A DNA stretch of 64,000 nucleotides from Clostridia bacterium (GTDB taxonomy: Bacteria > Bacillota > Clostridia > Christensenellales > Aristaeellaceae): positions 1 through 64,000 of the forward strand of contig JAFQQT010000040.1 of NCBI GenBank assembly GCA_017410455.1, written 5' to 3'. The position numbers were made by a program, and so were the translations under genes. The notes beneath the pieces were generated by a model. The model worked only from the letters and a program-made list of their open reading frames with translations. It made no database searches and was not told the DNA's origin. Below, piece by piece: positions 42,893 through 61,357 of this stretch; positions within the stretch are counted from its first letter, which is position 1; every line of letters starts with the position of its first letter.

Positions 42893-42928
42893 CCCGGCAG
42901 CAAACCGTACTGACAGCCGGCTGCCGGG
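42893..42928 (-). terminator. Hairpin between the permuted GH3 and its partner gene
   Basis: Perfect 9-bp stem CCCGGCAGC/GCTGCCGGG, 18-nt loop, between the GH3 stop (42950) and the partner start (42857). It has no T-run, so mRNA stabilisation or partial attenuation is more likely than full termination. Confidence 0.7.
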
Positions 42929-45811: not shown

Positions 45812-45911
45812 GTTGGATCCTCCTTGTTATTACGATCCACGGAATCACAACTACCACCGCAATGTGGGCAGCATGCGGCAATATCTGCGCAGTCCTGAAT
45901 CTTTTATGATA

Positions 45912-45940
45912 AGTATACCTGGGTGGAGATGGCAGTTCAA
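45912..45940 (-). promoter_or_regulatory. Promoter of the first GH3 operon
   Basis: Minus-strand TTGAAC, a 17-bp spacer and TATACT. A LytTR-like half-site ACCGTTGAA (45951-45959) ends exactly 10 bp upstream of the -35. Confidence 0.75.
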
Positions 45941-46022
45941 CGCAAGTGGATTCAACGGTGTTTGACATGCTCAAACATTCCTGTCTGATCCGAAACCGGC
46001 GTGTTCGCGTTTTTCTTATAGA

Positions 46023-46052
46023 ATGAACGGTATTCTTTTCGGCACGAACGGT
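46023..46052 (-). promoter_or_regulatory. Perfect pair of LytTR boxes
   Basis: On the minus strand, ACCGTTCGT (46044-46052) and ACCGTTCAT (46023-46031), separated by 12 bp. Both match the published LytTR consensus [TA][AC][CA]GTTN[AG][TG] at every position and have the canonical 21-bp period. It lies 82 bp upstream of the GH3 -35 and 48 bp upstream of the kinase -35. Confidence 0.8.
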
Positions 46053-46100
46053 TCGGATTTGCCTTTCATGCCCTCCCCGTTGAAACGCCACTCCTATGCT

Positions 46101-46130
46101 TGACGTTTCCAACGCAAAAATGGTAAAATT
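46101..46130 (+). promoter_or_regulatory. Promoter of the GHKL/LytTR operon
   Basis: TTGACG, an 18-bp spacer and TAAAAT, 35 bases before the GTG start at 46166. Confidence 0.65.
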
Positions 46131-46165
46131 GACACAGCAAGGAGCAGAAGAGAGGCGTATACAGA

Positions 46166-47512
46166 GTGTTTGAATACATCAATCTGTTTTATATTCAGCG
46201 AGGATGGGGGATTTGCTACATCCTGACCAATGTCGTGCTGATCTTCGGCGGCGTTCTCCTTTTGAATGACACCGTCAAAACCGTCAGGGGCATACTTCTC
46301 AAGGTGATGGAATGCCTGCTCTGTTTCGGCGTGTATACGCTGCTGGTCAGCATCTATTATGCGTTCTTCGGTACAAACCAGATGGATCGCGTCAGCCTGG
46401 CTGTCTTTTTTCTTGGATATTCCACACTGCGCAGCAAATATAAACGCCGGGTATGCCTTGTGCGCGGCAGTGTCTACTATGCCAGCATCATTGTCATGCT
46501 GCCCCTGTCTGAACCGCTGGGCGAACTGTTCAAGAATATCAATGTCAGCTATTTCGCTTGGGCACAGTATCTGACACTTCTTGTTGTCATAATGCTCACC
46601 GGAGCAATGATATGGTTCCTGCGCCACTTTGCATTTGAGGCCAAGAGCGTGGTGCATCCTCAGTTCACGTTCCTGACCGTATCGATTTCCATGCTGACAG
46701 TCATCTGTCAGACAGCGGCAATGGCGTGGGATACACCGGGCAGTTACAACCGCTTCGTCTGTGCCGTGCTGTGGCTGATCAATCTGCTGGCGTATTATAT
46801 GTTCTACGTCATCAGCCGCATCACAAAGGAGAACGTGTCCCTGCTGACAATGCGCCACAAAGCTGAGATGGAGCTGGAAAAGTATCAGGTCACCAAGATG
46901 AACTTCGATGAGCTCCGCCTGATCCGCCATGAGATCAAGAACCATCAGTTCTATATGAAGGCGCTGCTGGAAGAAGGCAAGATCGATCAACTGGCGGAAT
47001 ACCTGGAGCGCACATCCATGGCCGAGAGTGGCTTCCTGAAGGAATTCGACTGCGGCAACTACACGCTGAACGTTATTCTGAACCATTCCATCGGAGCCGC
47101 ACGCATCAGTGGCGTGGAAATGCAGACCGAGGTGCTCGTCCCCAACCAGCTGCCTTTCCCTGAGGAGGAACTGTGCAGCCTGCTTTGCAACCTGCTGGAT
47201 AACGCCATCGAGGCGGCTGCCTCCTCCAATGCTTCCAAGCCAGAGGTATTCATCCGCATCCAGCCCCGTCAGGATTACCTATTCATCAAACTCGTCAACA
47301 GCGTGAATGATCGCGTTACACCCCAGCGCCGTTTGTCGCTGCGCACAACAAAGGCCAATCGCGAACTGCATGGCTTTGGTACGCAGATCATCAAGCGCAT
47401 CGTGGATAGCCACAACGGATCAATCAAATACAGCATGGACAAGACCAGCACCGGAGAACATTCCTTTGTCACTGACGTGATGCTCGAGCTGCCGAAGGAG
47501 GATGAAACATGA
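46166..47512 (+). CDS. GHKL sensor histidine kinase (AgrC-like)
   Basis: 448 residues: six predicted membrane helices (about 15-225), then a cytoplasmic kinase part. H-box LRLIRHEIKNHQFYMKALL (about 252-270) has the R-H-x-x-K-N-H pattern of AgrC/CitA-type GHKL kinases. N-box LCNLLDNAIEAAAS (about 341-354) and G-box HGFGTQIIKRIVDSH (about 400-414) bind ATP. AgrC-like sensors usually detect a cyclic peptide, but no agrB or agrD gene lies in the window, so the ligand is unknown. GTG start at 46166 with AGAGGC upstream. It overlaps the regulator gene by 4 bases. Confidence 0.9.
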   Translation: MFEYINLFYIQRGWGICYILTNVVLIFGGVLLLNDTVKTVRGILLKVMECLLCFGVYTLLVSIYYAFFGTNQMDRVSLAVFFLGYSTLRSKYKRRVCLVRGSVYYASIIVMLPLSEPLGELFKNINVSYFAWAQYLTLLVVIMLTGAMIWFLRHFAFEAKSVVHPQFTFLTVSISMLTVICQTAAMAWDTPGSYNRFVCAVLWLINLLAYYMFYVISRITKENVSLLTMRHKAEMELEKYQVTKMNFDELRLIRHEIKNHQFYMKALLEEGKIDQLAEYLERTSMAESGFLKEFDCGNYTLNVILNHSIGAARISGVEMQTEVLVPNQLPFPEEELCSLLCNLLDNAIEAAASSNASKPEVFIRIQPRQDYLFIKLVNSVNDRVTPQRRLSLRTTKANRELHGFGTQIIKRIVDSHNGSIKYSMDKTSTGEHSFVTDVMLELPKEDET

Positions 47513-48246
47513 TCCATTGGAACATCGCTGTCTGCGACGACGAAAGGGCTGCCTTGTCAGTGCTGTCCGGCGCATTGGTGAATGCCTTCCGTCAGCATGA
47601 TGTGGAGGCGACGGTCGAGATGTTCGTGACCGCCCGCGATCTGGTTCGTCGGATGAAGGAATGTACCTTCGACCTGCTCTTTCTGGATATCGAAATGCCG
47701 AGCATTGACGGCCTGACCCTCGCCCGCCAGCTCCGTAAGGAGGGCAACCTGATCGACATCATCTTCATCTCTAACCGGGAGGATCTGGTCTTTGATGCCC
47801 TGCGCACCAACCCCAAGGGCTTCATCCGCAAGAGTCGGTTCATTCAAGATGTACCATCTGTCATCAACGCCTATTTTGCTGCCCGGCAGGACAACAAATC
47901 CAAGGTGCTGATCGTTCATACCCGGGGACAGGTACTCTATATCCCGATCGACAAGCTCACCTACATTGAAGGCAGCGGGAAGGCACAGCTCGCCCACATC
48001 GTTGGACGGAGCGAGCCGCTGGAACTCCGCAAGCTGATGCAGCAGTTGGAGGAAGATCTGAAGCCCTATGGCTTCCTGCGCATTCACAAGGGCTTTCTGG
48101 TCAATTACCGCTTCATCCGCAGGATCAGCGACAATGAGGTCATTCTCACCAACGACCAGAGGCTGCCCATCAGCCGCCGCAAGGAACAAGAGAGCCGGGA
48201 TGCTTATTTGGATTTGATGCAGGGCGAGGGATCTCTGATTCTATAA
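47509..48246 (+). CDS. LytTR-family response regulator (AgrA-like)
   Basis: 245 residues: receiver domain (1-120) with acidic pocket AVCDDERAA, phospho-Asp about residue 60 in LLFLDIEMPSIDG, Ser in IFISN and Lys near PKGFIRKS; LytTR DNA-binding domain (about 135-235) with HTRGQVLYIPIDKLTYIEGS, FLRIHKGFLVNYRFIRRI and LPISRRKEQE. LytTR proteins bind paired 9-bp direct repeats with a 12-bp spacer, and such a pair lies 1.5 kb upstream between this operon and the first GH3 operon. It is thus the best candidate controller for the three GH3 promoters. Terminator at 48276. Confidence 0.93.
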   Translation: MIHWNIAVCDDERAALSVLSGALVNAFRQHDVEATVEMFVTARDLVRRMKECTFDLLFLDIEMPSIDGLTLARQLRKEGNLIDIIFISNREDLVFDALRTNPKGFIRKSRFIQDVPSVINAYFAARQDNKSKVLIVHTRGQVLYIPIDKLTYIEGSGKAQLAHIVGRSEPLELRKLMQQLEEDLKPYGFLRIHKGFLVNYRFIRRISDNEVILTNDQRLPISRRKEQESRDAYLDLMQGEGSLIL

Positions 48247-48275
48247 ACCCATATTACAACGCCATTTTCATTTGA

Positions 48276-48305
48276 CACGGAGTCGCATTGTCTCCGTGCT
48301 TTTTG
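48276..48305 (+). terminator. Terminator after the LytTR regulator
   Basis: CACGGAG (48276-48282) pairs with CTCCGTG (48292-48298), then GCTTTTTG. Confidence 0.85.
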
Positions 48306-48308
48306 TTG

Positions 48309-48342
48309 AAAAAGGAGACCGTGCGCATGATGCACGGTCTCC
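48309..48342 (-). terminator. Terminator of the GH3-partner gene
   Basis: Perfect 11-bp stem (48314-48324 with 48332-48342). On the minus strand it is followed by TTTTTC. It lies 17 bases past the stop at 48359. Confidence 0.85.
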
Positions 48343-48358
48343 AGCTATTTACTTAAGA

Positions 48359-49363
48359 TCAATCAATCAGGACGCCCACAGTGGGCTGATTCAGCGCAAA
48401 GTCCACACGATCCGTCTGCAGACCGGGATTGACGCCGGGCATATCCATCTGGCCGGGCTCCTTCCACAGCTCGGTTGTCGCCATGCCGTATTCCGCCACA
48501 GGCGCATCATCCGTCAGGGTGATGGCAATAGCGGGCGTGATCTGGGAGTTGAGGATGTACTCGTCGCGGGAGATCGCCTGCAGGGTCACATAGTAGGTAC
48601 CTGCGGGGATGCCCATGGACTCGGTGGTGTAGGAATACAGGTCATAGCAGAAGTACAGCTCCGTACGCAGAGAACCAACGGGGCCGCCGCTGACTTCCGT
48701 ACCGACCGGCACATAGAGATGATCGCCCTTGGTCAGATTGTAGCCCCAGATCTCGATGATGCCGGGAGGATTCTTGCGCAGGGTATCCTTGAGCAGCTCC
48801 AGGTCAACGGTATCGCTGTACACTTCCTGCGTACAGGCCTCATCTGCATAGAAGGTGAACTTGGCATAGGGCAGGTACTCATAGTACAGGTAGTTGTCCA
48901 GCGTCCACCAGTCGATGACAAACTGCACGCGGTTGCCGGAGTACATCGCCAGCATTTCAGGGCGCTCCAACGGAAGACCCACTCCGAAGACGGTGTAGAT
49001 GTTGATGGGCTCGGGGCTGACGAAGCTGCTGCCTGCCGCCGCAAAGCTGTTCAGGGATACTGCGTAGTGACCCCACGCCACATCGCTCAGGTCGATAGTG
49101 CCGGAGATTTCGCCGGTCTTACCGCCGCGGATGCGCTTGGAGGAGGAAATGTATTCGCCGCTGATTTCCCCATCCTTCACCTCAAAGAAGCGGATGAAGT
49201 AATAGCTGACATTCTCGTCCACAGCGTTAAAAGAGTAATTGCCAGTTGCAGGATCAAAAACGAAATCCGTCGGCGGAATAAGAACGTTTTCTTCTGCCGA
49301 AGCCATGGCACACATGCCCAGTGCCAGAAGCACTGTAATCAATGCGATAAAGATCTTTTTCAT
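48359..49363 (-). CDS. Secreted GH3-partner protein, family A
   Basis: 334 residues: signal peptide (about 1-22), then the same phrase order as the protein at 41910-42857 (PPTDFVFDPATGNYSF, SSKRIRGGKTGEIS, WGHYAVSLNSFAAAGSSF, FVIDWWTLDNYLYYEYLP, PAGTYYVTLQAISRDE, TELWKEPGQM). This order and similar length make them clear paralogues. The fold looks like beta-sandwiches. AAAGGAG is 10 bases before the ATG. It follows the permuted GH3 gene after 87 bases that hold a strong hairpin, and ends at two back-to-back terminators. Probably a surface helper or glycan-binding partner of the enzyme; no direct evidence of activity. Confidence 0.75.
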   Translation of the reverse strand: MKKIFIALITVLLALGMCAMASAEENVLIPPTDFVFDPATGNYSFNAVDENVSYYFIRFFEVKDGEISGEYISSSKRIRGGKTGEISGTIDLSDVAWGHYAVSLNSFAAAGSSFVSPEPINIYTVFGVGLPLERPEMLAMYSGNRVQFVIDWWTLDNYLYYEYLPYAKFTFYADEACTQEVYSDTVDLELLKDTLRKNPPGIIEIWGYNLTKGDHLYVPVGTEVSGGPVGSLRTELYFCYDLYSYTTESMGIPAGTYYVTLQAISRDEYILNSQITPAIAITLTDDAPVAEYGMATTELWKEPGQMDMPGVNPGLQTDRVDFALNQPTVGVLID

Positions 49364-49403
49364 GAGGGTGCTCCTTTCGTTTGATGCATCGGAACGGGTT
49401 TTG

Positions 49404-49436
49404 AGCGGCAGCACAGCATCATACCATGCTGCCGCT
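49404..49436 (-). terminator. Hairpin between the permuted GH3 and its partner gene
   Basis: Perfect 10-bp stem (49404-49413 with 49427-49436) with a 13-nt loop, between the stop at 49451 and the start at 49363. No T-run; same position as the hairpins at 42893 and 56823. Confidence 0.7.
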
Positions 49437-49450
49437 TGAGCCCGCTGTGA

Positions 49451-52351
49451 TTACTTATCCAGGGTGGAGCAGTACTGGTACAGGGCGTTGCGCATGATGT
49501 TATGCAGCATATAACGCCCGTACACGTAATCCGTCGCATCGCCGTAGACTGCGATGGTCTGGCGGGAGTTGATGTACTGGGAGATGCTCAGCATGTTGCC
49601 CTGGATGGACAGCATCGCCTGAGGAGAGTTATACACATCGCCGGCGCCGCCGTCACCGTCGGTGATCAGCATACCCTGCCATCCCCATTCATCGCGCATC
49701 ATGGTCTTGTACATGCCATAGTGGAACCAGGACATGCCAATGCGGTTCAGGCTGCCCATCACTCCGTTGGCGCCATATTCCTTGATGCTGATCTCGTAGG
49801 GAATCATGTAGATCTCGCGGATGGCCTGCTCGTTGGCCCAGGTGGTGTTGCCGCCGCGGTTGGTGTCGCCGTCATTCAGCGCAGCGTGCTTGATGAACAC
49901 GTTGGTGCCGGTGGACTGGATGCCTGCCACGGTGCTGCCGCCGATCTGTCCGGAGATGAAGCCGTCCTCAGAGTAGTACTCGAAGTTACGGCCGCCAAAG
50001 GGAGAACGATGGATGTTCATTGCGGGCGCATACGCGCAGCCGATGCCGAATAGATTGGTCTGATGGCCGTAGGAAACACCCTCGGCGTAGGCCAGATCAC
50101 GGTTCCAGGTGGCAGCGATGGTAACCGCACAGGTGAACCAGGTGCCGCCGTTGTACTGGCCGTTACCGGGCTCGCCGGGGCCGTCCACAGCGATCTGCTG
50201 GGGCTTGCCGACGGATTCCACCGCAGGCACCTTCCAGCCCGCATTGCCCTGAACCTCAATGGCTTCGTCGATGGAGGTCATGTTGGCCAGTTTGTCGAAC
50301 AATTCCAGACCTTCCTCGGTGTAGATATCCACGCCGATCAGATCATTGACGGACAGAATGTGGTAATCGCCCTTGGGCTTCTCATCAACCACAACAGGGT
50401 TGCCTGCAGCGGTCTTTTCGCCCTCGACAACGTAATAGGTCTGCTCCCACAGCGGATCCTCAAAGCTGGAAGCCCGCACGCCGTCCGGGGTATACTGGGC
50501 GAAGGGCATCATGTTATTGCCATTGGCATAGATGGTCGAAGTCAGGGTAGTCTTCACACCCTTGATGTAGGTTTCAAAGGTATACTCGTAATGATCTTCC
50601 TCGCGCACGCTCATAGCCTCTACGAGGGCTTCGCTGGCCATTTCATTGGCCGCCTCATTGGACTGATGCGCCATGATGGCCTTCATGCCGCCAGCGATAT
50701 CACTGCGGGACAGGTAACCCTCCAGCATGCAGCCGTCACCGGCAGTCACGTCGTCCATCGCATTCCTGGCGATGGCCACATCGGATGCACGGGCGCCGGC
50801 GTAAATCGCACCGGGCACATCGCCCTGTGCATCATAAATGATCGCAGCGGGCAGCTCCACCTGCACGGACGCAGCAGCACGCTCCCCCCACTGGTGAGTA
50901 TCCTTCTGCACGTTGAAGGAATACAGGCCGTTCTCCAGCACGTAGCAGCCCTGGCCAAAGTTGTCGAAGGAAGCCAGGTTGTCGGTCTCGAAGGTAATGG
51001 TCAGTTCCTGGCTCTCACCGGGCTGCAGGATGTCCGTCTTGTCAAAGCCGATCAGCACGACCTTGGCTTTTTCCAGACCCACGCCCTTGATGCCGAAGTT
51101 CTCCACGTCGGACTGCCAGGGTGCATCCATGTACAGCTGCACAACGTTCTTGCCAGCCACAGAACCGGTATTGGTCACCTTCACGGTGATGCTGTTGGTG
51201 CCATGGGGCTCCAGCTTCACATCGGAGGCAACGATTTCCTCAGTGAAGGTCGTGTAGCTCAGGCCGTAACCAAAGGGGAACTGCACAACCTGCTCATAAC
51301 CTGCAACGGAGCCGTTTTTGAAGGTCAGGGTCTTGAATTCCTCAGAATCGAAGTAACCCATCGCATCAGCGGTCTCAAAGTAACGGTAGCCAACGTAAAT
51401 GCCTTCCTCGTACTGATAGAAGGTCTGACGGCCGCCGCCGGAACCATTCATAGAAGCGGTGGACAGGTTGGCGTACTTGTTATCATCGGTGTTGTAGTAA
51501 GTCGGATTGGTGGTCATGTCATAGGCATAGGTATCCACCAGACGGCCGGAGGGATTCATGCGGCCAGTCAGCAGAGTACCAACGCCCACAACGCCCGCCT
51601 CACCGGGATGACCAATCCACAGACATGCGTCCACATTGTATTCCGCGCTGTCGATGAAGCCCAGCTCCATCGGGGCTGCAGAGTTGACCAGCACGATGGT
51701 ATGGGCAAAGTTCGCCTTACACCAGGCCAGCAGGTCCTTTTCATTCTGATCCAGCTCCAGGTAGGTGGTGCCGGTCAGGGTGGAGCCGTCGCCGTCGTAG
51801 TCCATGGAGGGAGATGCGCCCTCAGCACCGGAACGGCTGATGGTCACGATGGCGTAATCAGTGTAGCCATCCTTCAGGATGTCCGCCGCGCCAGCCTCGT
51901 AGGTACCAATGGGGAATTCGTGGATCCCGCGATAGCTGGTCCAGTCACCCACACCTGAAGGGTCTGCACTGCCGACGCCACGTTCGCCGCCGCACTGCTC
52001 CTCCAGCCAGTACCAGGCGTCTTCATTGACGTCCATACCGGCCTCAAAGAAAGCGTCCGCCAGCAGAACGGTATTCAAGTCGTCCTTACCGCCGGCAGAG
52101 CCGGTGCCGCCCTCAACGTAGTTGTAGCTCATTGCACCCAGGATGGTCACCTTCGTGCCCTCCGCCAGGGGCAGAACGCCCGTATTCTTCAGCAATACCG
52201 CACCTTCGGATTCCAGCTGCACATTGACGCTGTAGCCCTCAGCGTAGCATTCATTCGCATCGAAGGTTTCCGCAAATGCAGAACCCGAAACACAGCTGAG
52301 CAGCATGGCCAGCGCGCATACTGCACTGATGATCTTCTTACTCAGTTTCAT
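49451..52351 (-). CDS. Secreted circularly permuted GH3 glycosidase
   Basis: 966 residues: signal peptide (about 1-27), alpha/beta domain first, Fn3-like domain (PFGYGLSYTTF), linker, then the barrel (NIHRSPFGGRNFEYYSEDG, FIKHAALNDGD) with candidate nucleophile Asp898 in MLITDGDGGAGD. It is a close paralogue of the enzyme at 42950-45811; most phrases are shared word for word. An insert of about ten residues with Gly-Ser-Gly-Gly-Gly (about 324-336) distinguishes it. GAGGAGGAATACC precedes the ATG at 52351. The promoter at 52454 has a weak -35 and a LytTR-like half-site at 52493, so an activator is likely. Confidence 0.93.
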   Translation of the reverse strand: MKLSKKIISAVCALAMLLSCVSGSAFAETFDANECYAEGYSVNVQLESEGAVLLKNTGVLPLAEGTKVTILGAMSYNYVEGGTGSAGGKDDLNTVLLADAFFEAGMDVNEDAWYWLEEQCGGERGVGSADPSGVGDWTSYRGIHEFPIGTYEAGAADILKDGYTDYAIVTISRSGAEGASPSMDYDGDGSTLTGTTYLELDQNEKDLLAWCKANFAHTIVLVNSAAPMELGFIDSAEYNVDACLWIGHPGEAGVVGVGTLLTGRMNPSGRLVDTYAYDMTTNPTYYNTDDNKYANLSTASMNGSGGGRQTFYQYEEGIYVGYRYFETADAMGYFDSEEFKTLTFKNGSVAGYEQVVQFPFGYGLSYTTFTEEIVASDVKLEPHGTNSITVKVTNTGSVAGKNVVQLYMDAPWQSDVENFGIKGVGLEKAKVVLIGFDKTDILQPGESQELTITFETDNLASFDNFGQGCYVLENGLYSFNVQKDTHQWGERAAASVQVELPAAIIYDAQGDVPGAIYAGARASDVAIARNAMDDVTAGDGCMLEGYLSRSDIAGGMKAIMAHQSNEAANEMASEALVEAMSVREEDHYEYTFETYIKGVKTTLTSTIYANGNNMMPFAQYTPDGVRASSFEDPLWEQTYYVVEGEKTAAGNPVVVDEKPKGDYHILSVNDLIGVDIYTEEGLELFDKLANMTSIDEAIEVQGNAGWKVPAVESVGKPQQIAVDGPGEPGNGQYNGGTWFTCAVTIAATWNRDLAYAEGVSYGHQTNLFGIGCAYAPAMNIHRSPFGGRNFEYYSEDGFISGQIGGSTVAGIQSTGTNVFIKHAALNDGDTNRGGNTTWANEQAIREIYMIPYEISIKEYGANGVMGSLNRIGMSWFHYGMYKTMMRDEWGWQGMLITDGDGGAGDVYNSPQAMLSIQGNMLSISQYINSRQTIAVYGDATDYVYGRYMLHNIMRNALYQYCSTLDK

Positions 52352-52453
52352 GGTATTCCTCCTCTTCACATTTCGCAATCATTGGGACACGCCGGGTAGT
52401 TTCTGCCCTCCCTTCTCCATTGTTGCATACATAACAGCTATACCGCTACTGAT

Positions 52454-52501
52454 ATTATAGCATCGATACGGAGCCAGATGTGCCGACTGCGCTCAAACGG
52501 T
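52454..52501 (-). promoter_or_regulatory. Activator-type promoter with LytTR-like half-site
   Basis: Minus-strand TATAAT (52454-52459), 17 bp from a poor -35 (CACATC, 52477-52482); half-site ACCGTTTGA (52493-52501, 8 of 9 consensus positions) ends 10 bp upstream of the -35. The 299-base gap 52352-52650 holds nothing else that I can support. Confidence 0.65.
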
Positions 52502-52650
52502 GCTTATGCATCCCGATTTCCCATCCTTTGGTACAAGCGTCTGTTTCTCCGGCATAAGCGGAATTGCATGCGTGTGAATTTGGACGCAACCGTGTTTTCC
52601 CCTTGACCGCACGTAAAACTCCCGGAGAGATTCCAGGAGCCGTATGATGC

Positions 52651-55605
52651 TTAACAGGTTTGAACAGAACGACGTTTCCGTTCCTGTGCCAAGGTAAGAA
52701 GGAGTATGGCCGTTGACACTGCACCCAGCGCAAAAGAAGAAGCCTGTGCCGCCATGAGCATCATCTGCCACCAGGGCGTCACGGGTACAATTTCACTGGC
52801 GGAGGAGAAGCCGTTCATCGCCGCACTGTAATTGGCAATCACATACAGGTAACGGTGAACTGCCTCCCGGATGGCGCTGCGGAAAGTGACGCTGGATGCG
52901 TAGCTGTCAAACTGACTCTGTGCACCAGTGGGATCCAGGAACAGATCCGTCCCCTGAACAAAGGAGTCGTAGGACATATAGGCATTCTGCCCCAGTGCCA
53001 TGTCCGTCAGCACCACGCCATCGAAGCCGAATTCACCGCGCAGGATGTCCTCCATCAGCTCGCTGCTGGCGCTTGTCCAGATGCAGCCAGCCCGGTTGAA
53101 GGAGCTCATCACGCCATGGGCATTGCCCCTGGAGGGTGCAACAGCATACTCAAAGGGTCGCAGGTAAATTTCACGAGCGCTCTGCTCGTTGAGCCAGATG
53201 CCGATGCCAATGCGGCTGTCCTCCTGATCGTTGAAAGCATAATGCTTCACATAGGGGATCACGCCCTTGGACTGCACGCCCTTGATCTCCGCTGCCACAG
53301 CCACGCCGGACAGATATGGATCCTCCGAGAAATACTCATGCGCACGTCCACCAAAGGGTGTACGGTGGATATTCACGCCGGGAACGTACATGCCCGTCAC
53401 ACCAACGTTCAGCGCATCCTCGCCCAGCGCGCCGCCGACCTTTTCGATCAGCTCCAGATTGAAGGACGCTGCCCATATGCTTTCGCTGGGGAAGGATACA
53501 TCCTCTGCGCTGTCCACCACGCCGGTGGGACCGTCCTGCGCTTTGATTTCCGGCAGTGTAACAGAGGTTACGCCCTTGCTGCCATAGCCTGCCAGCATGA
53601 CCAGATCCCGCTGTTCCTCCCAGGTCATCTGATCCAGCAGATCATCCCAGGTTTCCGCGTCATAACTTTCGCTGCGCAGCATAATGAGGCTCAGTCCATT
53701 AGAAGCGCCATAGACAGGCATTTCCGCTTCAGGATCCTCAGTAATAGCCTTCATCGTTTTCAGATCCTCGGCCATCTGCGCTGTCACGGTGAGTGTAATG
53801 GCCTCTTTGGGGAAGGTTCCTTCCCAATCGCTGCGGGATACATAGGTTACAGCATTGTCGCCGCGGCCTTCATACTTGTTGACGTCGGCAAAATCCAAGC
53901 GGTTGGTGATTTCCTCGCCGGTCTCGGAAGACACGGCATAGGTCGTGGTATCCAGGGTGATATCCTGCCCCACCAGCGATGCCAAGGCAGCATTGCCATC
54001 CTGATCCATGCCGTCTGCAACAGTTTTGCCCTTCAGGGCAAGGATGTTGTTGAGCGCATCATGGGAGGATGTACCGGTGGCCAGATAGTACTCGCCAGCT
54101 TCGAGAATGTAAGTCTTGTATCCGTTTGCGTCGTAGGTTTTGAACTGCTCTCTGTCTACCGTGATGGTCAGAGTTTGACTTTCGCCGGGCGCAAGCATTC
54201 GGGTCTTGTCAAAGCCACAAAGCTCAACTGAGGCCTTTTCCACGCCATGGGCCTTATCATACTCCGTATAGGGCTTTTGCAGATAGATCTGCACAACTTC
54301 CTTACCGGATACATCACCCGTGTTTGTAACTTTCACGGAGACCGCATAGCTGCCATCCGCCGTTTCAGCGACGGAATAGTCGCTGTACTCAAAGGCTGTG
54401 TAGCTCAAGCCATAGCCGAAGGGCCGGGAAACGACGCTTTGGTAATCGTAATGCCCTGCGCCGGGACGGCCCAGCACAATATCCTCATAGCGGGTCTCAT
54501 AGTAGCGATACCCGACATAGATGCCCTCTGTATACACGCCATACCGGGTCTGCGCGTCAGAGGACAGCAGTTCACTGTTCTGATACTTTGCGGCGTAGGT
54601 GCCAGTGGTATTTTGCAGCACCCAGGCTGCCATCGCCGGAGAGGAGAAATTGTCCTTGACATAGGTATCAGGCAGCTTGCCGGAGGGATTCACCTCGCCA
54701 ACCAGTGTCTTGGCAACCGCTGTGACGCCGCCCATGCCCACGTTGCCGACCCATAGGCAAGCATCCACATCCACCGTATAGGTCGCACCGTTGACCTCCA
54801 CCATCCAGTCATCCTGCAGGAAGGCGGTTTCAAAGACAAGCGCTGTGTTGATGAGCACCACAATTCCATCCAGCTCACCAGCCTTTTTCATGCTGGTCAG
54901 TTCGGCAAGGATCTCAATCTCCTCCGCCGTGAGGGAAAGATAGCTCCCGTCGTAGCCATCGCTCTTCTTGGTGGACAAGTCTGCGCCCTCACCGCCCAGT
55001 CGGCTGACGACGACGATGGCAGTACCGCCGGTGGTATGAATGGACGACCGTGCTTCTTCAGAGTAATCAGCCCAAGCCAATGCATTCACCTTGTAGACCG
55101 GATCGCCCTTGCGGCTGTAGGTTACAGCCTGCCGGGAGGGATTCGCAGCGTAAAAATCCCACAGGGTGGTATTGACTGCCAGTCCTGCTGTCTCCAGCGC
55201 TGTTTTCAGGTTGGTGTACTTGGTTGCATCGATCGCACCGGAGCCAGAGGAGCCATAGCTAAAGCTATATGCAGACTGCAAAACAGTGCTCACGCTGTCG
55301 CCCTTGGAAAGCGGCAGCGCGGAGTTCTTGTTTTTGAGCAGCACCATGCCCTCGGCCTCGGCCTCTTCACTGACGGCCTTGCCATAAGCTGTGACCGCTT
55401 CGGTGCCCTGATGCCCCGCTTCAAAGTAAACCGCATCATCCTGCTCGTCATCGCTTTTGACGACCTTGTAAGAGCTGGTCTTCAGGGCGAAGTTCAGGGC
55501 AGGGGCATAGGCATTTGCCACCTCGCCCACCATGGACACGACGATTGCCAGCGTCAGGAATGAGACTGCTAAAGTTCGCCACGTTCTCTTGTTCAGCCAC
55601 TTCAT
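52651..55605 (-). CDS. Membrane-anchored circularly permuted GH3 glycosidase
   Basis: 984 residues with a membrane helix at each end: N-terminal (about 12-33) and C-terminal (about 945-970, followed by a basic QERKRRS tail). Between them lie the GH3 alpha/beta domain (about 60-390; GMVLLKNKNSALPL, VSRLGGEGADLS, WVGNVGMGG, NPSGKLPDTY), Fn3-like domain (FGYGLSYTAFEYSDYSV), a linker, and the barrel (about 660-930; QDGPTGVVDS, NIHRTPFGGRAHEYFSEDPYL, YVKHYAFNDQE) with candidate nucleophile Asp868 in VVLTDMALG. The enzyme is thus tethered outside the cell. It starts 3 bases after the stop of a small four-helix membrane protein, its likely partner. Confidence 0.92.
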   Translation of the reverse strand: MKWLNKRTWRTLAVSFLTLAIVVSMVGEVANAYAPALNFALKTSSYKVVKSDDEQDDAVYFEAGHQGTEAVTAYGKAVSEEAEAEGMVLLKNKNSALPLSKGDSVSTVLQSAYSFSYGSSGSGAIDATKYTNLKTALETAGLAVNTTLWDFYAANPSRQAVTYSRKGDPVYKVNALAWADYSEEARSSIHTTGGTAIVVVSRLGGEGADLSTKKSDGYDGSYLSLTAEEIEILAELTSMKKAGELDGIVVLINTALVFETAFLQDDWMVEVNGATYTVDVDACLWVGNVGMGGVTAVAKTLVGEVNPSGKLPDTYVKDNFSSPAMAAWVLQNTTGTYAAKYQNSELLSSDAQTRYGVYTEGIYVGYRYYETRYEDIVLGRPGAGHYDYQSVVSRPFGYGLSYTAFEYSDYSVAETADGSYAVSVKVTNTGDVSGKEVVQIYLQKPYTEYDKAHGVEKASVELCGFDKTRMLAPGESQTLTITVDREQFKTYDANGYKTYILEAGEYYLATGTSSHDALNNILALKGKTVADGMDQDGNAALASLVGQDITLDTTTYAVSSETGEEITNRLDFADVNKYEGRGDNAVTYVSRSDWEGTFPKEAITLTVTAQMAEDLKTMKAITEDPEAEMPVYGASNGLSLIMLRSESYDAETWDDLLDQMTWEEQRDLVMLAGYGSKGVTSVTLPEIKAQDGPTGVVDSAEDVSFPSESIWAASFNLELIEKVGGALGEDALNVGVTGMYVPGVNIHRTPFGGRAHEYFSEDPYLSGVAVAAEIKGVQSKGVIPYVKHYAFNDQEDSRIGIGIWLNEQSAREIYLRPFEYAVAPSRGNAHGVMSSFNRAGCIWTSASSELMEDILRGEFGFDGVVLTDMALGQNAYMSYDSFVQGTDLFLDPTGAQSQFDSYASSVTFRSAIREAVHRYLYVIANYSAAMNGFSSASEIVPVTPWWQMMLMAAQASSFALGAVSTAILLLTLAQERKRRSVQTC

Positions 55606-55608
55606 TGC

Positions 55609-56061
55609 TTACGCCTCCTTCCCGGTCGGATCGGTGTGCCAGCCCAATTCCTGCTTCTGCAGGATGGCAGAAATCAGTGTGCACACCCATGCCAGCAGCC
55701 CGAAAATGACCGTCAGGATGAAGCCGATGCTGAATTGGTTGCCGTCGATCCCCACCAGCACATTGGAGATGTAGGAGGCCTCATAGAAGAGGAATTCCAA
55801 CCATGTCCACAGGCTGAGGAGGTACAGTCCATACTTGCCATTCTTGACCTCAAAGAGTACAAGCAGAACACCGATATCGATGCATATGCTCTCCATCACG
55901 ATCACCTTGGTGGACAGAACAGGGGTGAACGTGGAGATCCCGGTCAGAGCGTAAGCGATCAGCATCGCAGCTGAAAAAGCTACACCCAGTGCAATGAATA
56001 AAAACGGAATGCTTCTCTTGTGCCGGATCATGTGCCCGATCCGCTCCATGAAAGCGTGCAT
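55609..56061 (-). CDS. Small four-helix membrane protein paired with the tethered GH3
   Basis: 150 residues with four membrane helices (about 20-42, 50-72, 79-98, 112-135). No named family recognised. ATG at 56061 with AAGGAGG at 10 bases; a TTG three codons upstream is in frame. The stop lies 3 bases before the start of the membrane GH3, so translation is coupled. It may help insert, hold or regulate that enzyme. It comes 60 bases after the secreted CBM-like gene and likely shares the transcript from 61.2 kb. Confidence 0.7.
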   Translation of the reverse strand: MHAFMERIGHMIRHKRSIPFLFIALGVAFSAAMLIAYALTGISTFTPVLSTKVIVMESICIDIGVLLVLFEVKNGKYGLYLLSLWTWLEFLFYEASYISNVLVGIDGNQFSIGFILTVIFGLLAWVCTLISAILQKQELGWHTDPTGKEA

Positions 56062-56121
56062 TATGGTCAATCCTCCTTACATGATCCGGCCTGAAAAAAC
56101 AACATTCAGGTCAGAAGCGCA

Positions 56122-56790
56122 TCAGTTGACATACGCCGGGTTGTAGGTGATGGGCGTGATCACACCGTCGGTATACAGGATCAGGCAGTCTACCAGAGGC
56201 GCTGCAGCCTTCATCGTGCCGCCCACACCCTTGATGTCGTTGTTGATCAGCAGCTCCACGGCATTGTAGCCCTTTTTGATGGAAACATTCTCCACCACGA
56301 GGTAGTCCTGAAAGTCCATGACCCGGCTGGAAAATTCACTATAGGACTCAATGGTCAGCGGGAAGTCGAACTGCTGCTCATATGCCTCGGCATCCTCGTC
56401 GTAATTGATGCCCACGATCAGCTGGTCGCCCTTGACGTTGATGCTGTTATACTGGGCAGACAGACGCAGCACGATGGTCAGATCATCGATGTCCTCAGCG
56501 GCTTCAAATTCAAAGCTCAGGTATGCGCCGGGATAGTACAGCCAGCTGACATAATAGCCGTTGGAGGCCGTCTTTGAGTCGGTGTCGTCGCCGGTGATCA
56601 TACCCGTACCCGTCGTCGAACCGGAATAGCCGCTGCCATACTTGTTCTCCAGGTTGGTCAGTTCCGCTTCCAGCACGTAGACATTGGGCTGGGCTTCTTC
56701 AGCCGGTGCAGCTGCTTCACCCTCCGCAAGTGCAGCGCTGCCGAGCAGCAGCAGGGCACAGAATAAGGACAGAATCCACTTGCATTTCAT
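56122..56790 (-). CDS. Secreted CBM6/35-like protein paired with the giant GH3
   Basis: 222 residues: signal peptide (about 1-22), short Ala/Glu linker, then one beta-sandwich (about 35-222) that begins YVLEAELTNLENKYGSGYSG and has SNGYYVSWLYYPGAYLSFEF, LRLSAQYNSI and a VSIKKGYNAVELLIN strand: the E-A-E and Y-x-x-G-A-x-x-x-F pattern of CBM6/35 modules. It probably binds a glycan at the surface. ATG at 56790 has GGTGG 8 bases upstream; 56796 is an alternative. Unlike the two family-A partners it has a recognisable CBM, but it holds the same place after a permuted GH3 and a hairpin. Confidence 0.78.
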   Translation of the reverse strand: MKCKWILSLFCALLLLGSAALAEGEAAAPAEEAQPNVYVLEAELTNLENKYGSGYSGSTTGTGMITGDDTDSKTASNGYYVSWLYYPGAYLSFEFEAAEDIDDLTIVLRLSAQYNSINVKGDQLIVGINYDEDAEAYEQQFDFPLTIESYSEFSSRVMDFQDYLVVENVSIKKGYNAVELLINNDIKGVGGTMKAAAPLVDCLILYTDGVITPITYNPAYVN

Positions 56791-56822
56791 ACTCATTTCC
56801 ACCTTCCGGAAAAATTCAGCTT

Positions 56823-56869
56823 GCCGTTGGACGCTGCGAAGCATCTCAGCCTCAGCAGCGCCCAACGGC
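56823..56869 (-). terminator. Hairpin between the giant GH3 and its CBM-like partner
   Basis: GCCGTTGG plus CGCTGC (56823-56837) pairs with GCAGCG plus CCAACGGC (56855-56869), one bulge. On the minus strand it is followed by AAGCTGAATTTTT, so partial termination is possible. Confidence 0.65.
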
Positions 56870-56916
56870 GTGATTAAGTCATCTGGGTCAAGTCCCGATG
56901 TCAAGTCAATTTGGAC

Positions 56917-59900
56917 TTATTTGCCCCAGGTCACGGAGATCTGGCCATCCGCAGCGGTCCACACACCGGTCTCGTTCGCGCCAGCGATGGGGCCGGCAGC
57001 GCCAACGACCAGCTGAGTGGTGCCGTCAGCCTTCAGGTGCAGAGTCATCTCCACGCTGAAGGGAGCATTAGGATCGCCCATGGCAAGGGAGTAAGTGTAC
57101 TGGTCGCCCTCCTGAGCCTCCGCCTTGGAAGCGGTGGTCTTGAAGAGCTGGTGCTCGCCGATGGACCAGGAGAAGGTCTCTGCGCCCTCTGCGAAGGTCA
57201 CATCCTCAGGCACGACCTCGAAGCCGGCCATGCCGCCGCCACCAGGCATACCGCCGCCCATGCCGCCGCTGGAGACCTCGATCTCCTTATTCTCCTCCAG
57301 CTCTTCGTTCATGTCGGGGGTAGGCACGCCGTCCTCGTTGACGAGCAGCTTGTAGGTCCAGGTCAGGAAGCGGTTGAAGGGCTGCTTGTCATCGTTGACC
57401 AGGTCGGAGCAGACCCAGCCGTCGATCAGCACATGGATGGTCATCTTGTACTGGCCGTTCTCGGTGGGCACGCCGGAAAGGGTCGCCGTGGCAGGATCGA
57501 AGGTCATGCCCGCAGGAACGTCGCCCTCGATGGTGTATTCAGCGGTGTACAGGGGCGTCTTCACGCCGTTCTCGTCCACGGTGTAAGTGCTCTTGGCCTC
57601 GCCGGAGAGGTCGAAGACCAGCTTGGCTTCGCTGCCCTTGACGAAGGTACGCTCCTCAGCGGTGAACTCGGGCAGCTTGGTCAGGGAGTGACCATTCAGG
57701 TTGGTCAGGGCATTGGACTCGATGTAGAGGATGCGGGCCGCGAGCATGCGCAGGTAGTACCACTGGCTGTAGCTCTCGACCTCTTCGCCGCGGTAACCGC
57801 CCTTGACGTTCTCGTCCGCCACAGAGCCGCGGTCGTTGTACATCACGGTTGTGGTGGCAAAGTCGTCGCCGTAGAAGTCATACTCGGTGTCCCACGCGCC
57901 GGTGTAGGCGTAGAACTTGCCGGTCTCCGCGTCATAGCGGCCGGAGATGGCAGGAATACGGCCATTCAGAGGCAGCGGCACGACGAAGGAGCGCATCATG
58001 CTGGCCATGGTGGTGCAGCGGGAGAAGCCAGAGTAGCCGTCGGTGATGAAGAAGCCGTTCCAGCCCCACTGATCCACGACCATGCCTTCCATCAGGCGGT
58101 TGTTGGAGGAGGTGGGCACGCCGCAGAAGCGAGCAAAGCCAGTCATGGAGGAGGAAGAACCGCCCTCCTGCATGCACATCTGGAAGACCTTGAAGTAGAT
58201 CTGACGGGCAGCCTGCTCAGAGAGCCAGACCATGTTCTCCATGCCGTCGCGGCAGGTTTCCTGATCATTCAGGGCAAAGTGCTTGATGTAGCAGGTCACG
58301 CCCATGGCTTCCATGCCGCCGGTCAGGCCAGCGGCCATGTAGCCGCCTACCAGGCCGTCCTGGGACATGTACTCGTAGTTACGGCCGGAGAAGGGGCTGC
58401 GGTGGGTATCCATTTCGGGGCCGCCCCAGGCAGACCAGCCATTGTACAGGCTCAGATTGCCGCGAACCTGACCGATCTCGTAGGCCAGATCGGTATTCCA
58501 GGTGGCGGTGATGGTAGGCGCATCCACCCACAGGAAGGTATCGCCGTTGTTGTTGTAGCTGTCCTTCTGCTGGTTGGCAGCCTTGCCGATATTGGGCAGG
58601 CCGGTAGAGCGCCACATATTGGTGTTCTTGCGGATGAGGGTGGTCATTTCCTCCACGGTGAGCTGGTTCATGAACTCGTTCCACTCATCGGTGAGGGTGC
58701 CGTCCTCATCAAACAGCTCCTTGCCGGACATGTCGGACAGCACGATGGCATAGGTGCCAGTCTCCTCGTCCACCACGCCGGTTCCCTGAGCCCAGCCCTC
58801 AGCGATGGCTTCGTCAGCGGTGTGGTAGGTCTCGTCGCCCTCAATGTCGGCAGCGGAGAACTGGTTCCAGTAATCCAGGTGCGCAACGTAGCTCTCGGAG
58901 AGCACCAGATCGCCCTCGGTGGGAGTCTCGGGGAAGTAGGTCAGGAAGGTGTCGCGGGTCAGGAGGATTTCCTTGCTCTCGCCGTCCGCCATCAGATTTT
59001 CGGTACGGAGGGAATTGAAGATCTGGTAGTGATCCTCGTCGGTGTCCGCAGCCCAGACGTTGCCGTTCACGTTTTCGCTGTCCTCGTAGGACTCGGAGAA
59101 GATGGCTTCGCTGTTCTTGCCGGAGAAGTCGTCCAGCACCAGGCGGGCAGCGCCCTTGGAGCCAGTCTCAGCAGTCTCGGCCAGCGTAAAGCGAACCTCG
59201 GCGTATTCATCGGTGGTGTCAGCCAGGTCGGTAGCCATGTCATAGTGAGAGGTGTTCATCGCGCGGATGATCCACTCGCCGGTTTCCATGGTGTAGCCGG
59301 TCACGCCCTCGCTGTAAGCGTCGGCGTAATCAAAGGGCACCATGTCCTGCACGTTGACGCTGACCAGAACGGTCTCACTCTCGCCGGGCTGGATGACGCC
59401 GGACTTGCCGAAGCCTGCCAGCGCCACGAAGGACTTCTGCAGCTTCGCAGTTTCGGTGTTATAGGGAGCGGTAACGTAGATCTGCACGACTTCCTTGCCA
59501 GCCATGTCGCCGGTGTTGGTGACAGTCACGGGAATGACGATGGTCTTGACCTTGGCGGGCTTGCCATCGGAGGAGGACAGGTTCTCCGCCGTCATATCGG
59601 TGGCGATGTTGAAGCCCTCTACCAGGGTATCGTCAGCAGATTCCAGCGCGCCGCCGTAAGCGGTGATGGCGTCCGCATCAATGTTCAGGCTGAAGGTAGT
59701 GTAAGAGAGGCCGGAGCCGAACGCGAAGGTCACGTTCTTCTTCCACCATTCACCGGCAGCGTAGGCAGCTTTCTCCTCGACGGTCTCGCCGGGAGCGTCT
59801 GCACGAGACACGGTGTGCACCACGCCGTTGCCCTGATACTGGACGGTCTCATTTTCCAGCAGAGCCTCGTACAGGGAAGCGTAGAGGGTCTCCCAGTAGG

Positions 59901-61116
59901 CATAGCCGAGGTAGATGTCTTCCTCGTAGTCAGTGCCATAGTAGGCGTTCTGGTTGTGCGAGCCGTAGGTGATGGTGGTCTCGCCGCGCTCGAGGTAATC
60001 GTCGTAGTTGCCGTTGCCTTCGTAGGCGGTGACCGTCGTGCCGTATTCGCCGACATAGTAGATGTTCTGGCTGCCGGTCTGGGCGTTCCAGGCAAAGTTG
60101 TTCCAGGTGGGATCTGCAGTGAAGTCGGTGTTCCACTCATCGACCAGACGGCCGGAGGGATTGGTCAGACCCGCCAGGATCGTGCCCACGACAAAGTGGC
60201 CGGTTTCGCCGCCGCGGCCCATCAGCAGGATGCCGTTGATGCGCTCATCCTCGCGCAGGTCGTAGCATTCCATGGCGTTGGAGGTATTCAGTACCACGAT
60301 GACCTTCTCGCAGCTCTTGGCCACATAGTCGATCAGAGCCTCCTCCGCATCGGTCAGCTGGAGGTAGTGCTTGTACTCCGTCCCGTTCTCGTCGTAGTTG
60401 GCGCTGGTGCCAGCAACCTGATAGGAGGCGGAAGAGCCCATGGGGCCGCCACCGCGTCCGCTGCTCTGCGCTGCCGCCACGACTTCGCCGGTGTACAGCG
60501 CATCATGCTCGTACTTAGAGGGCTGCTCGCCGTACATGCCGTCGTTGATTTCAGGAGTGACCATGTCCAGGTCTGCACCTTCGCCGCCGTAGCGAGCCAG
60601 GACGATCACGCCAACCTCGCTGTATTCAGCGATGGAGGCTGCGGCTTCCGCAGAAAACTCCAGCGTCTCCTTGCCGCAGTCGCCGGTGGAGAAGCCCTTG
60701 GCAGCGTAGAAATCTGCCATGGTAGGATTGACGTTAAAGCCAGCCGCAGTCAGGCCGTCATAGATCGGGCCGCGCTCGCTGACAGTGAAGTCGGTATGCT
60801 GCTTGTACGCGCTGTTGCTGGTGGGGCCCGCAACAGTCGTAGAAGAAGCGATACCGAATACACTGACCCTCTCCGAACCGGTCAGGGGCAGCGTGCCATC
60901 GTTCTTCAGCAGTACCTGTCCTTCCTCTGCAGTCTGCGTATTCACTTCGCCGACATGCTCCAGAAGCTCTGCGTAGCTGTCAAAGCGGGAATAATACTTG
61001 CCTTCTGCTTCAAGCACAGCGGCAGAAGCAGGACTCACAGCCGTCAGACACATGATCAGCGCCAGCACAGCTGCTGTAATGGTTCTTCTCAGGTGGTTTC
61101 CAGTATACTTGCTCAT
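56917..61116 (-). CDS. Giant secreted circularly permuted GH3 glycosidase
   Basis: 1399 residues, far longer than typical GH3. Signal peptide (about 1-33); alpha/beta domain (about 65-440; QVLLKNDGTLPL, LARYGGEGADLD, MGRGGETGHF, NPSGRLVDEWN) with a large insert that carries AAAQSSGRGGGPMG; Fn3-like domain (about 490-640; FGSGLSYTTF, VTVTNTGDMAGKEVVQIYV); linker; barrel (about 780-1130; DTHRSPFSGRNYEYMSQDG, YIKHFALNDQE) with candidate nucleophile Asp1026 in FFITDGYSGFS; an Ig-like putative domain (about 1150-1260); a Gly/Met-rich linker (SSGGMGGGMPGGGGMAG); and a final beta domain of about 100 residues. ATG at 61116 follows AAGGAGG. Promoter at 61223 with LytTR-like sites upstream. Confidence 0.92.
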   Translation of the reverse strand: MSKYTGNHLRRTITAAVLALIMCLTAVSPASAAVLEAEGKYYSRFDSYAELLEHVGEVNTQTAEEGQVLLKNDGTLPLTGSERVSVFGIASSTTVAGPTSNSAYKQHTDFTVSERGPIYDGLTAAGFNVNPTMADFYAAKGFSTGDCGKETLEFSAEAAASIAEYSEVGVIVLARYGGEGADLDMVTPEINDGMYGEQPSKYEHDALYTGEVVAAAQSSGRGGGPMGSSASYQVAGTSANYDENGTEYKHYLQLTDAEEALIDYVAKSCEKVIVVLNTSNAMECYDLREDERINGILLMGRGGETGHFVVGTILAGLTNPSGRLVDEWNTDFTADPTWNNFAWNAQTGSQNIYYVGEYGTTVTAYEGNGNYDDYLERGETTITYGSHNQNAYYGTDYEEDIYLGYAYWETLYASLYEALLENETVQYQGNGVVHTVSRADAPGETVEEKAAYAAGEWWKKNVTFAFGSGLSYTTFSLNIDADAITAYGGALESADDTLVEGFNIATDMTAENLSSSDGKPAKVKTIVIPVTVTNTGDMAGKEVVQIYVTAPYNTETAKLQKSFVALAGFGKSGVIQPGESETVLVSVNVQDMVPFDYADAYSEGVTGYTMETGEWIIRAMNTSHYDMATDLADTTDEYAEVRFTLAETAETGSKGAARLVLDDFSGKNSEAIFSESYEDSENVNGNVWAADTDEDHYQIFNSLRTENLMADGESKEILLTRDTFLTYFPETPTEGDLVLSESYVAHLDYWNQFSAADIEGDETYHTADEAIAEGWAQGTGVVDEETGTYAIVLSDMSGKELFDEDGTLTDEWNEFMNQLTVEEMTTLIRKNTNMWRSTGLPNIGKAANQQKDSYNNNGDTFLWVDAPTITATWNTDLAYEIGQVRGNLSLYNGWSAWGGPEMDTHRSPFSGRNYEYMSQDGLVGGYMAAGLTGGMEAMGVTCYIKHFALNDQETCRDGMENMVWLSEQAARQIYFKVFQMCMQEGGSSSSMTGFARFCGVPTSSNNRLMEGMVVDQWGWNGFFITDGYSGFSRCTTMASMMRSFVVPLPLNGRIPAISGRYDAETGKFYAYTGAWDTEYDFYGDDFATTTVMYNDRGSVADENVKGGYRGEEVESYSQWYYLRMLAARILYIESNALTNLNGHSLTKLPEFTAEERTFVKGSEAKLVFDLSGEAKSTYTVDENGVKTPLYTAEYTIEGDVPAGMTFDPATATLSGVPTENGQYKMTIHVLIDGWVCSDLVNDDKQPFNRFLTWTYKLLVNEDGVPTPDMNEELEENKEIEVSSGGMGGGMPGGGGMAGFEVVPEDVTFAEGAETFSWSIGEHQLFKTTASKAEAQEGDQYTYSLAMGDPNAPFSVEMTLHLKADGTTQLVVGAAGPIAGANETGVWTAADGQISVTWGK

Positions 61117-61222
61117 ATTTACCTCCTTACTCATATCAAACGGATCCATCTGGAAAACTGGGGGCAGTTGCAGCACCTCCCTTTCTTTATAAGCTCCCAT
61201 TTCCAGACTATATGCTAATTTG

Positions 61223-61310
61223 ATTTTATCGGAGAAGATAACCACGGGCAAGCGACCAGGAATGAACAGCTCTTCCCCGGAACAAGAAACGAAAATGTAG
61301 AACGAACGGT
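61223..61310 (-). promoter_or_regulatory. Promoter of the giant GH3 operon with LytTR-like sites
   Basis: Minus-strand TTGCCC (61246-61251), a 17-bp spacer and TAAAAT (61223-61228). Half-site GCTGTTCAT (61262-61270, 7 of 9) ends 10 bp upstream of the -35. A perfect half-site ACCGTTCGT (61302-61310), identical to one of the 46-kb boxes, lies further up. Confidence 0.65.
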
Positions 61311-61357
61311 CCATTTATGGCACAAGCAAAAGTATCATTCGTCTGCAAGCAGCATAA

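Follow-up and report, generated by a model that had tools for sequence, protein, structure and literature searches.

A three-half-site promoter layout before GH3 glycosidase genes points to a probable LytTR-controlled regulon in a Clostridia bacterium

We analyzed a stretch of 64,000 nucleotides (nt), hereafter the window, which comprises positions 1-64,000 of the forward strand of contig JAFQQT010000040.1 from a Clostridia bacterium (assembly GCA_017410455.1). The window contains four genes for GH3 glycosidases (GH3a to GH3d). GH3a and GH3b flank the plus-strand genes of a GHKL sensor kinase and a LytTR response regulator. A preliminary description of this DNA had placed the kinase and regulator amid the GH3 operons, as the located genes confirm, and had quoted a LytTR-like half-site 10 base pairs (bp) before the -35 element of three minus-strand promoters, namely those of GH3a, GH3b and GH3d. 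All three strings are present exactly where they were quoted (Table 1). The half-site is real, and it is one of three: the full layout reads HS1-N12-HS2-N31/33-HS3-N10-[-35]-N17-[-10], in which HS1 and HS2 form a distal pair that had gone unreported and HS3 is the half-site noted before. The GH3 regulon proposed in the preliminary description is probably right. We consider it likely that the GHKL-LytTR system is dedicated to the control of the GH3 genes on either side and acts through the distal pair together with the proximal half-site.

GH3b and GH3d match the common layout, GH3d with one weak half, and in GH3a the interval from HS2 to HS3 is longer by about 31 bp, or three helical turns. 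As read from the sequence, 9-bp direct repeats about 12 bp apart, a form typical of LytTR regulators, recur at neighboring promoters as putative binding sites. The distal pair of GH3a is the sole ACCGTT-N15-ACCGTT pair of the genome; with a gap one base longer there is one further place in the genome, and the reversed control gave one place. The -35 strings listed in the preliminary description are found at the spacing it reported, but CACATC of GH3b agrees with TTGACA at only one of six positions and occupies the place of a -35 without being a good one. Among ten layout promoters, seven have a -35 that agrees at three or fewer of the six positions. A further ACCGTTTAT lies at 61354-61362, 52 bp upstream of the second half-site of GH3d. 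Its offset is about that of the first half-site of GH3a, and GH3d scores 27.0 in the wider-spacing class described below.

Table 1. Genes and candidate promoter elements of the GH3 cluster in the window. G numbers denote genomes of relatives.
Feature	Position	Strand	Remarks
GH3a	42950..45811	-	Permuted GH3 glycosidase (C domain, Fn3-like, N domain), probably secreted; one N-terminal hydrophobic segment
GH3a promoter TTGAAC-N17-TATACT	45912..45940	-	
GH3a proximal half-site HS3 ACCGTTGAA	45951..45959	-	Noted in the preliminary description
GH3a distal pair ACCGTTCGT-N12-ACCGTTCAT	46023..46052	-	HS1 46044-46052, HS2 46023-46031
GHKL sensor kinase	46166..47512	+	PF14501; by hydropathy about six to seven hydrophobic segments in the N-terminal half, before the GHKL domain
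LytTR response regulator	47509..48246	+	Receiver + LytTR domain (PF00072, PF04397); homologues in relatives
U351	48359..49414	-	Probably secreted, downstream of GH3b; no Pfam/NCBIfam match; 77% identical in G178
GH3b	49451..52351	-	Permuted GH3, probably secreted (Pfam, N-terminal hydrophobic segment); start read as ATG 52351 after GAGGAGG
GH3b promoter CACATC-N17-TATAAT	52454..52482	-	Poor -35
GH3b proximal half-site HS3 ACCGTTTGA	52493..52501	-	Noted in the preliminary description
GH3b distal pair TCCGCTTAT-N12-GACGCTTGT	52533..52562	-	
U260, U153, GH3c	52651..56904	-	Behind GH3d on one strand; similar gene order in G114
GH3d	56917..61116	-	Permuted GH3, probably secreted (Pfam, hydrophobic segment); start read as ATG 61116 after AAGGAGG
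GH3d promoter TTGCCC-N17-TAAAAT	61223..61251	-	
GH3d proximal half-site HS3 GCTGTTCAT	61262..61270	-	Noted in the preliminary description
GH3d distal pair TTTGCTTGT-N11-ACCGTTCGT	61302..61330	-	First half weak; 20-bp period

The LytTR consensus is WMMGTTNRK. We scored the best pair of half-sites against this consensus in 28 upstream regions (25 of GH3 and 3 of GHKL genes) from this genome and its relatives. At a spacing of 21 bp, at least 14 of 16 consensus matches were reached in 9 of the 28 regions; no other spacing between 15 and 27 gave more than 3, and the opposite strand at 21 bp gave 2. The 21-bp spacing of the half-sites is specific. The distance to the promoter was analyzed in those 11 promoters of the 28 regions that had been chosen for a visible pair. 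A TANNNT -10 begins 73-75 nt after the pair in nine of them; in 5,000 block shuffles this offset never occurred in more than 4 of 11 promoters, and no offset occurred in more than 5. The two promoters off this distance are GH3a of the window (105 nt) and a gene of G025. When offsets of 10-129 were scanned, none outside 71-77 had two or more -10-like strings; there is therefore no ordinary promoter 33 nt after the distal pair.

The proximal half-site was examined with a weight matrix from distal half-sites only, with each promoter left out in turn. For this profile one G440 promoter was added to the eleven and a GH3d-like one of G025 dropped; ten of the resulting 11 were aligned at the -10, GH3a being omitted for its spacing. 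The top three of 132 offsets, counted from the start of the -10, were -42, which is the site of the preliminary description and ranked first, followed by -83 and -104. Without the rows from the window, -42 was third of 132 in the remaining eight promoters, behind only the two distal sites. In a test on eight promoters from other genomes it ranked first of the 45 offsets between pair and promoter, and none of 4,000 shuffles reached its mean score, with weights that excluded the scored genome and included the distal sites of the window. HS3 is a real yet variable part of the layout, and the distal pair is stronger than this single half-site of the preliminary description.

These profiles also bear on the earlier claim that the common spacing at three promoters exceeds chance. 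The pattern CNGTTNR ... TANNNT at that spacing occurs four times in the window against 0.63 expected, and 0 of 100 shuffles reached four; three of the four places are the quoted sites, from which the pattern had been chosen post hoc, and the count itself is suggestive only. The claim gains from the high rank of -42 in the independent weight-matrix profiles. The half-site ACCGTTNR alone was not clearly enriched in the window (13 against 8.1 expected, with 8 of 100 shuffles reaching 13), and sigma-70-like hexamer pairs were no commoner there than in shuffles (6 against 8.3).

Could a single half-site 10 bp before the -35, or a pair that has lost its partner, be the whole operator, with the upstream pairs incidental? 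LytTR operons usually have their site at this position according to the available text of PMC6193735, -42 is a top-ranked offset, and AATGTTTGA at 45971-45979 (minus strand), 20 bp upstream of GH3a HS3, might be a partner. We regard this explanation as improbable: no element is better conserved outside the window than the distal pair, which gives the profile peaks at -83 and -104; a partner near -62 comes no higher than rank 10 of 132 in the jittered profile; and G025 GH3e, G597 GH3 and G114 keep the distal pair while being negative at -42. An arrangement of four half-sites in 21-bp steps, with the extra one near -62, is weak by the same rank and is not claimed.

The specificity of the full layout within this genome was analyzed in 617,038 bases, or about 19% of the assembly, made up of the window, 20 background stretches and 10 gene regions that had been fetched, using half-site weights learned from other genomes only and scoring both spacing classes. 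GH3b scored 30.4 and GH3d 28.3, and the next best place 19.7; as a reservation, the common spacings had been taken partly from the window itself. In the wider-spacing class GH3a scored 37.1 and the next place except GH3d 17.4, with the further reservation that this class was set after seeing GH3a, whose distance is 105 rather than 73-75 nt. The preliminary description had suggested a motif search beyond the window; ranked by the full layout, only these three promoters reach such scores in the 617 kb.

The layout recurs in relatives. Here the scan covered 408,757 bases in 28 fetched loci that had been chosen for LytTR homologues or pair matches. The weights excluded the scored genome, and only places of at least 22 were counted; places of relatives at 17.1 to 19.7 are comparable to the highest chance score of the own genome. 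Fourteen distinct places passed (range 22-37), and half of them precede GH3 genes: one in G247 (36.7) and two each in G178 (30.8, 28.4), G025 (28.7, 22.0) and G440 (35.3, 34.2). Two precede kinase genes (G597 28.5, G440 22.9) and two secreted-protein genes (G440 35.4 and G597 25.5, the latter doubtful in that its -10 ends 6 nt ahead of the start codon). One (36.2) precedes an AMP-ligase-like gene, named by reading its sequence, beside the LytTR pair of G287. The last two are a place in G440 (33.8) before no nameable gene and an unexplained one in locus L070 (26.7). G440 and G597 are members of the same order but of other families. The layout also stands beside the closest homologues of the regulator, in G025, G178 and G247, which favors the dedicated GH3 regulon of the preliminary description; the contact between regulator and sites is what we infer. 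A conserved layout before similar genes in related bacteria looks like a real, dedicated control circuit.

G247, from another genus of the same family, is informative for the gene that the pair serves. In this genome GCCGTTCGT-N12-GCCGTTCAT precedes an orthologue of GH3a (80% identical over 439 residues), and the LytTR gene and GH3a follow each other on one strand with the pair between them. The pair therefore follows GH3a and not the kinase gene. The possibility that the pair serves the divergent kinase gene was also rejected in the window, where no plus-strand place was among the 14 listed per class (lowest listed scores 13.1 and 12.8). Autoregulation of the kinase is likely in relatives, judging from the layout at the kinase promoters of G597 and G440. 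The regulator reading frame of G247 is a fragment covering the LytTR domain: this short frame (L084 1865-2320) holds the DNA-binding part alone, and another LytTR-type pair lies upstream of it.

The distal pair was also analyzed without its promoter. The exact distal pattern is not diagnostic, with 17 places in 14 of 308 family genomes against 12 in the reversed control, and only the places of the window and G247 have cluster proteins within about 1.5 kb. With up to three mismatches it was uninformative in the own genome (158 places against 237 in the control). Next to these patterns we used a model of the distal pair that considers sequence only; its 8 training sites do not include GH3b and GH3d. 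In the whole genome this pair model gave three matches at E up to 10, namely GH3a (8.6e-5), which is a training site, a place on contig C84 (3.7) and the untrained GH3d (3.8). At E up to 0.01 it matched in 6 of 17 genomes with a regulator homologue and in 0 of 19 others; five of these six genomes had supplied training sequences. The 36 chosen genomes together gave 21 matches at E up to 0.3. Seven are training sites, and of the 14 others 11 were examined, with three G033 places left out. Nine had no -10 at 73-75 nt (G086, three in G428, G024, G111, G025 C98, G247 2287 and G081); the two that had it are G440 places. The pair model alone rarely finds the -10 geometry at untrained sites, and therefore it is the complete layout that serves as the signature and not the pair by itself. 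Among 396 genomes of the order, matches in G379, G613, G330 and two of four places in G403 lack both a TANNNT at 73-75 nt and a cluster protein within about 1.5 kb, and a G593 site has a GH3-like gene upstream of it and no -10 at that distance; these were set aside as unexplained or chance.

Such counts would suit a flexible pattern read into upstream DNA by chance: the earlier pattern was picked after the fact, 15 of the 17 exact-pattern places lack a cluster-protein match within about 1.5 kb, the reversed control has 12 places, and the pair model alone gives the -10 geometry at 2 of 11 untrained sites. Nevertheless, chance is very improbable as an explanation, given that, under weights taken from other genomes, the full layout sets the three promoters apart from all else in 617 kb of this genome, and that G440, from another family, also has it at GH3 genes.

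Regulator and GH3 genes are also linked in their location. A GH3a-d-like gene (E up to 1e-20) occurs in 15 of 23 other fetched LytTR loci, that is, in 13 of 21 loci of other genomes and on C42 and C65 of this genome. Of the 308 family genomes, four contain GH3a/b-type genes, and in three of these four the regulator has a close homologue as well. One contig of G178 keeps the order GH3b-U351-GH3a-U327-U566, and another, short contig has kinase-regulator-GH3b. A search of the genus for the regulator gave a best match outside this genome of E 3e-23 at 26% identity, with short partial matches of up to 39%; orthologues were therefore sought in the family and order. The contig scan for regulator relatives gave one distant locus (L070).

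The sites may be real LytTR sites that are bound by another LytTR protein, as the genome encodes six, five besides the cluster regulator, and C42 carries, near other GH3 genes, the gene of a relative with 38% identity to this regulator. No place in the stretches fetched from C42 and C65 exceeds 13.3 for the layout, however, and the layout stands beside the closest homologues of the cluster regulator in three other genomes, so that we think binding by another of the LytTR proteins unlikely. The regulator on C65 is 22% identical to that of the cluster. Its gene (L071 2727-3380) sits between GH3 genes, and the layout was not found there.

Several points weigh against the dedicated control of the GH3 genes by this system. 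The distal pairs of GH3b and GH3d are weak taken alone: in the whole-genome search with the pair model, which extended to E 10, GH3b is missing and GH3d is matched at E 3.8, and the model by itself predicts poorly. GH3a and GH3b are paralogues with 76% identity, so their promoters may not be independent. Besides the number of LytTR genes, the LytTR genes on C42 and C65 adjoin GH3 genes without the layout. The -35 hexamers of GH3a and GH3d are fair (4 of 6). At HS3 only four of the eight outside promoters are clearly positive, and G114 is strongly negative; the GH3 gene of G597 itself scores only 17.1. Finally, a GH3a-d-like gene was found in 0 of 20 background stretches of this genome, a contrast that is flattered since these stretches were picked away from the regions fetched for GH3; GH3 places fall into 11 of about 165 20-kb bins of the genome.

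We observed the sequence elements at their spacing, found them again in relatives and saw regulator and GH3 genes linked, and on this basis we propose the following mechanism. The two-component system in the middle of the cluster would control the flanking GH3 genes. Its kinase may sense a cue at the cell surface, perhaps a glycan product. The LytTR protein would bind a tandem pair of 9-bp half-sites of the NCCGTTYRT type, usually with a 21-bp period and centered near -100 from the inferred transcription start, as well as a third half-site at the usual LytTR position 10 bp before the -35. Since the half-sites are in direct orientation at near-whole-turn spacings, the bound protein would come to lie on one face of the DNA and would help RNA polymerase at promoters with an often poor -35. 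The candidate sites are places from which this regulator presumably activates.

The same geometry would suit a system that represses the GH3 genes, or a distal pair that mainly forms a silencing loop until the kinase is triggered: the pair lies well upstream of the polymerase footprint and at near-whole-turn distance from HS3, as a loop would need. Repression or looping is nonetheless a doubtful alternative. A -35 as poor as that in seven of the ten layout promoters suits an activator, and according to the accessible parts of PMC4227749 and PMC6193735, AgrA at P2/P3 and HdrR/BrsR activate, although a repressed gene is named for AgrA too.

If the GHKL-LytTR system activates as proposed, the layout may represent a mode of LytTR activation that was not found in the open papers searched. 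In this mode, a pair about 100 bp upstream, which ends 73-75 nt before the -10, and a half-site next to the -35 would act together at near-whole-turn spacing in several families, either by bending the DNA or through a higher-order LytTR assembly. The glycosidase regulon so defined would be recognizable from its sequence alone. On balance we lean towards this view, without much confidence. If the targets of one regulator clade can be told by such a layout, glycosidase regulons could be called from sequence in bacteria known from genomes only. The cluster would also be a concrete case for how a LytTR protein could act from about 100 bp upstream, in contrast to AgrA, which acts from about -60 (PMC4227749), and to the streptococcal repeats next to the -35 (PMC6193735), as far as the available text of both papers goes.

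A link between LytTR and GH3 genes was printed in 2010 for Butyrivibrio: the accessible text of PMC2914790 describes LytTR genes beside secreted GH3 enzymes in PUL7, 21 and 33 of Butyrivibrio proteoclasticus B316. As there, the present cluster has a LytTR response regulator near a predicted secreted GH3 with a C-terminal membrane helix, for which GH3c is the candidate here (hydrophobic segments at 9-27 and 952-970 of 984). Unlike B316, which is a different organism, it has several GH3 genes plus probably secreted proteins without a known family; the accessible text on B316 contains no binding sites or promoter layout. A LytTR regulator and kinase also appear in one arabinoxylan locus in a table of PMC5320581, in the part of that paper available. 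We found no report of the present promoter layout in open papers, which leave most subscription papers uncovered.

The sites also resemble those of the streptococcal HdrR/BrsR-type LytTR operons, which in the accessible text of PMC6193735 have 9-bp direct repeats, mostly with an N12 gap and with a strong bias to 10 bp before the -35. Both share the 9-N12-9 repeats, and HS3 of G178 and G247 is similar to streptococcal half-sites such as ACCACTTAT. The HdrR/BrsR systems as described there combine a LytTR regulator with a membrane inhibitor, and their single repeat pair adjoins the -35. In the present cluster a receiver-LytTR protein is joined with a GHKL kinase, and the strong pair lies about 41 bp further upstream. 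With its receiver and a GHKL kinase as partner, the regulator is not of the HdrRM type, in which a membrane inhibitor replaces the kinase.

A GHKL kinase is also the partner of an AgrA-type regulator, and the preliminary description had called the system Agr-like. This label is weak: the regulator scores 25.4 bits on the AgrA equivalog model of NCBIfam (NF046049), whose cut-off is 400, and is not an AgrA-type regulator by this model. The likeness to AgrA/AgrC of Staphylococcus lies in a LytTR response regulator and tandem direct repeats upstream of target promoters. The repeats of AgrA center near -60 according to the accessible text of PMC4227749, unlike the strong pair here, which centers near -100 of the inferred start. 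A Pfam scan of 22 open reading frames (ORFs) of the window gave no match to AgrB; ORFs below 80 amino acids (the size of AgrD) and the rest of the genome were not searched.

The regulator exceeds the Pfam cut-offs for both domains (PF00072, 54.8 bits against 30.2; PF04397, 54 bits against 22.6), which makes it a LytTR-domain response regulator. ComE is a competence regulator; its structure from Streptococcus pneumoniae (4cbv) is the best sequence match of the regulator among solved structures (E 8e-8, residues 68-232) and second by E-value in a profile comparison (regulator residues 12-229). Both proteins have the receiver-LytTR layout, and the targets of ComE are unrelated. All four cluster GH3 genes carry PF00933 and PF01915, with the C domain first, then the Fn3-like and N domains, and each has an N-terminal hydrophobic segment. 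GH3b aligned piecewise with solved beta-glucosidases, and the TD motif is kept. With N and C domains and the catalytic Asp region, GH3a-d are predicted members of family GH3. U260, U153 and GH3c are probably co-transcribed behind GH3d.

U351 and U327 (41910-42893) are similar-looking, probably secreted proteins that follow GH3b and GH3a, respectively. Both begin with a hydrophobic segment near the N-terminus, neither matches a Pfam or NCBIfam family significantly, and both are retained in G178 beside the same GH3 genes. U566 (40089-41789), which has many hydrophobic segments and matches no family, is an integral membrane protein; it lies downstream of GH3a-U327 in G178 and G177. The LytTR relatives on C42 (L024 2250-3704) and in G287 (L083 about 5194) adjoin AMP-binding-ligase-like genes, and that of G287 carries the full three-site promoter layout. 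In G440 (L180 about 1425, minus strand), a strong layout match with a TTGACA/TATTGT promoter has no recognizable gene behind it and possibly serves a small RNA or small protein. A 21-bp tandem repeat at about 21694-21764 of G033:C9 (L100, L105, L107) contains three exact matches to the distal pattern.

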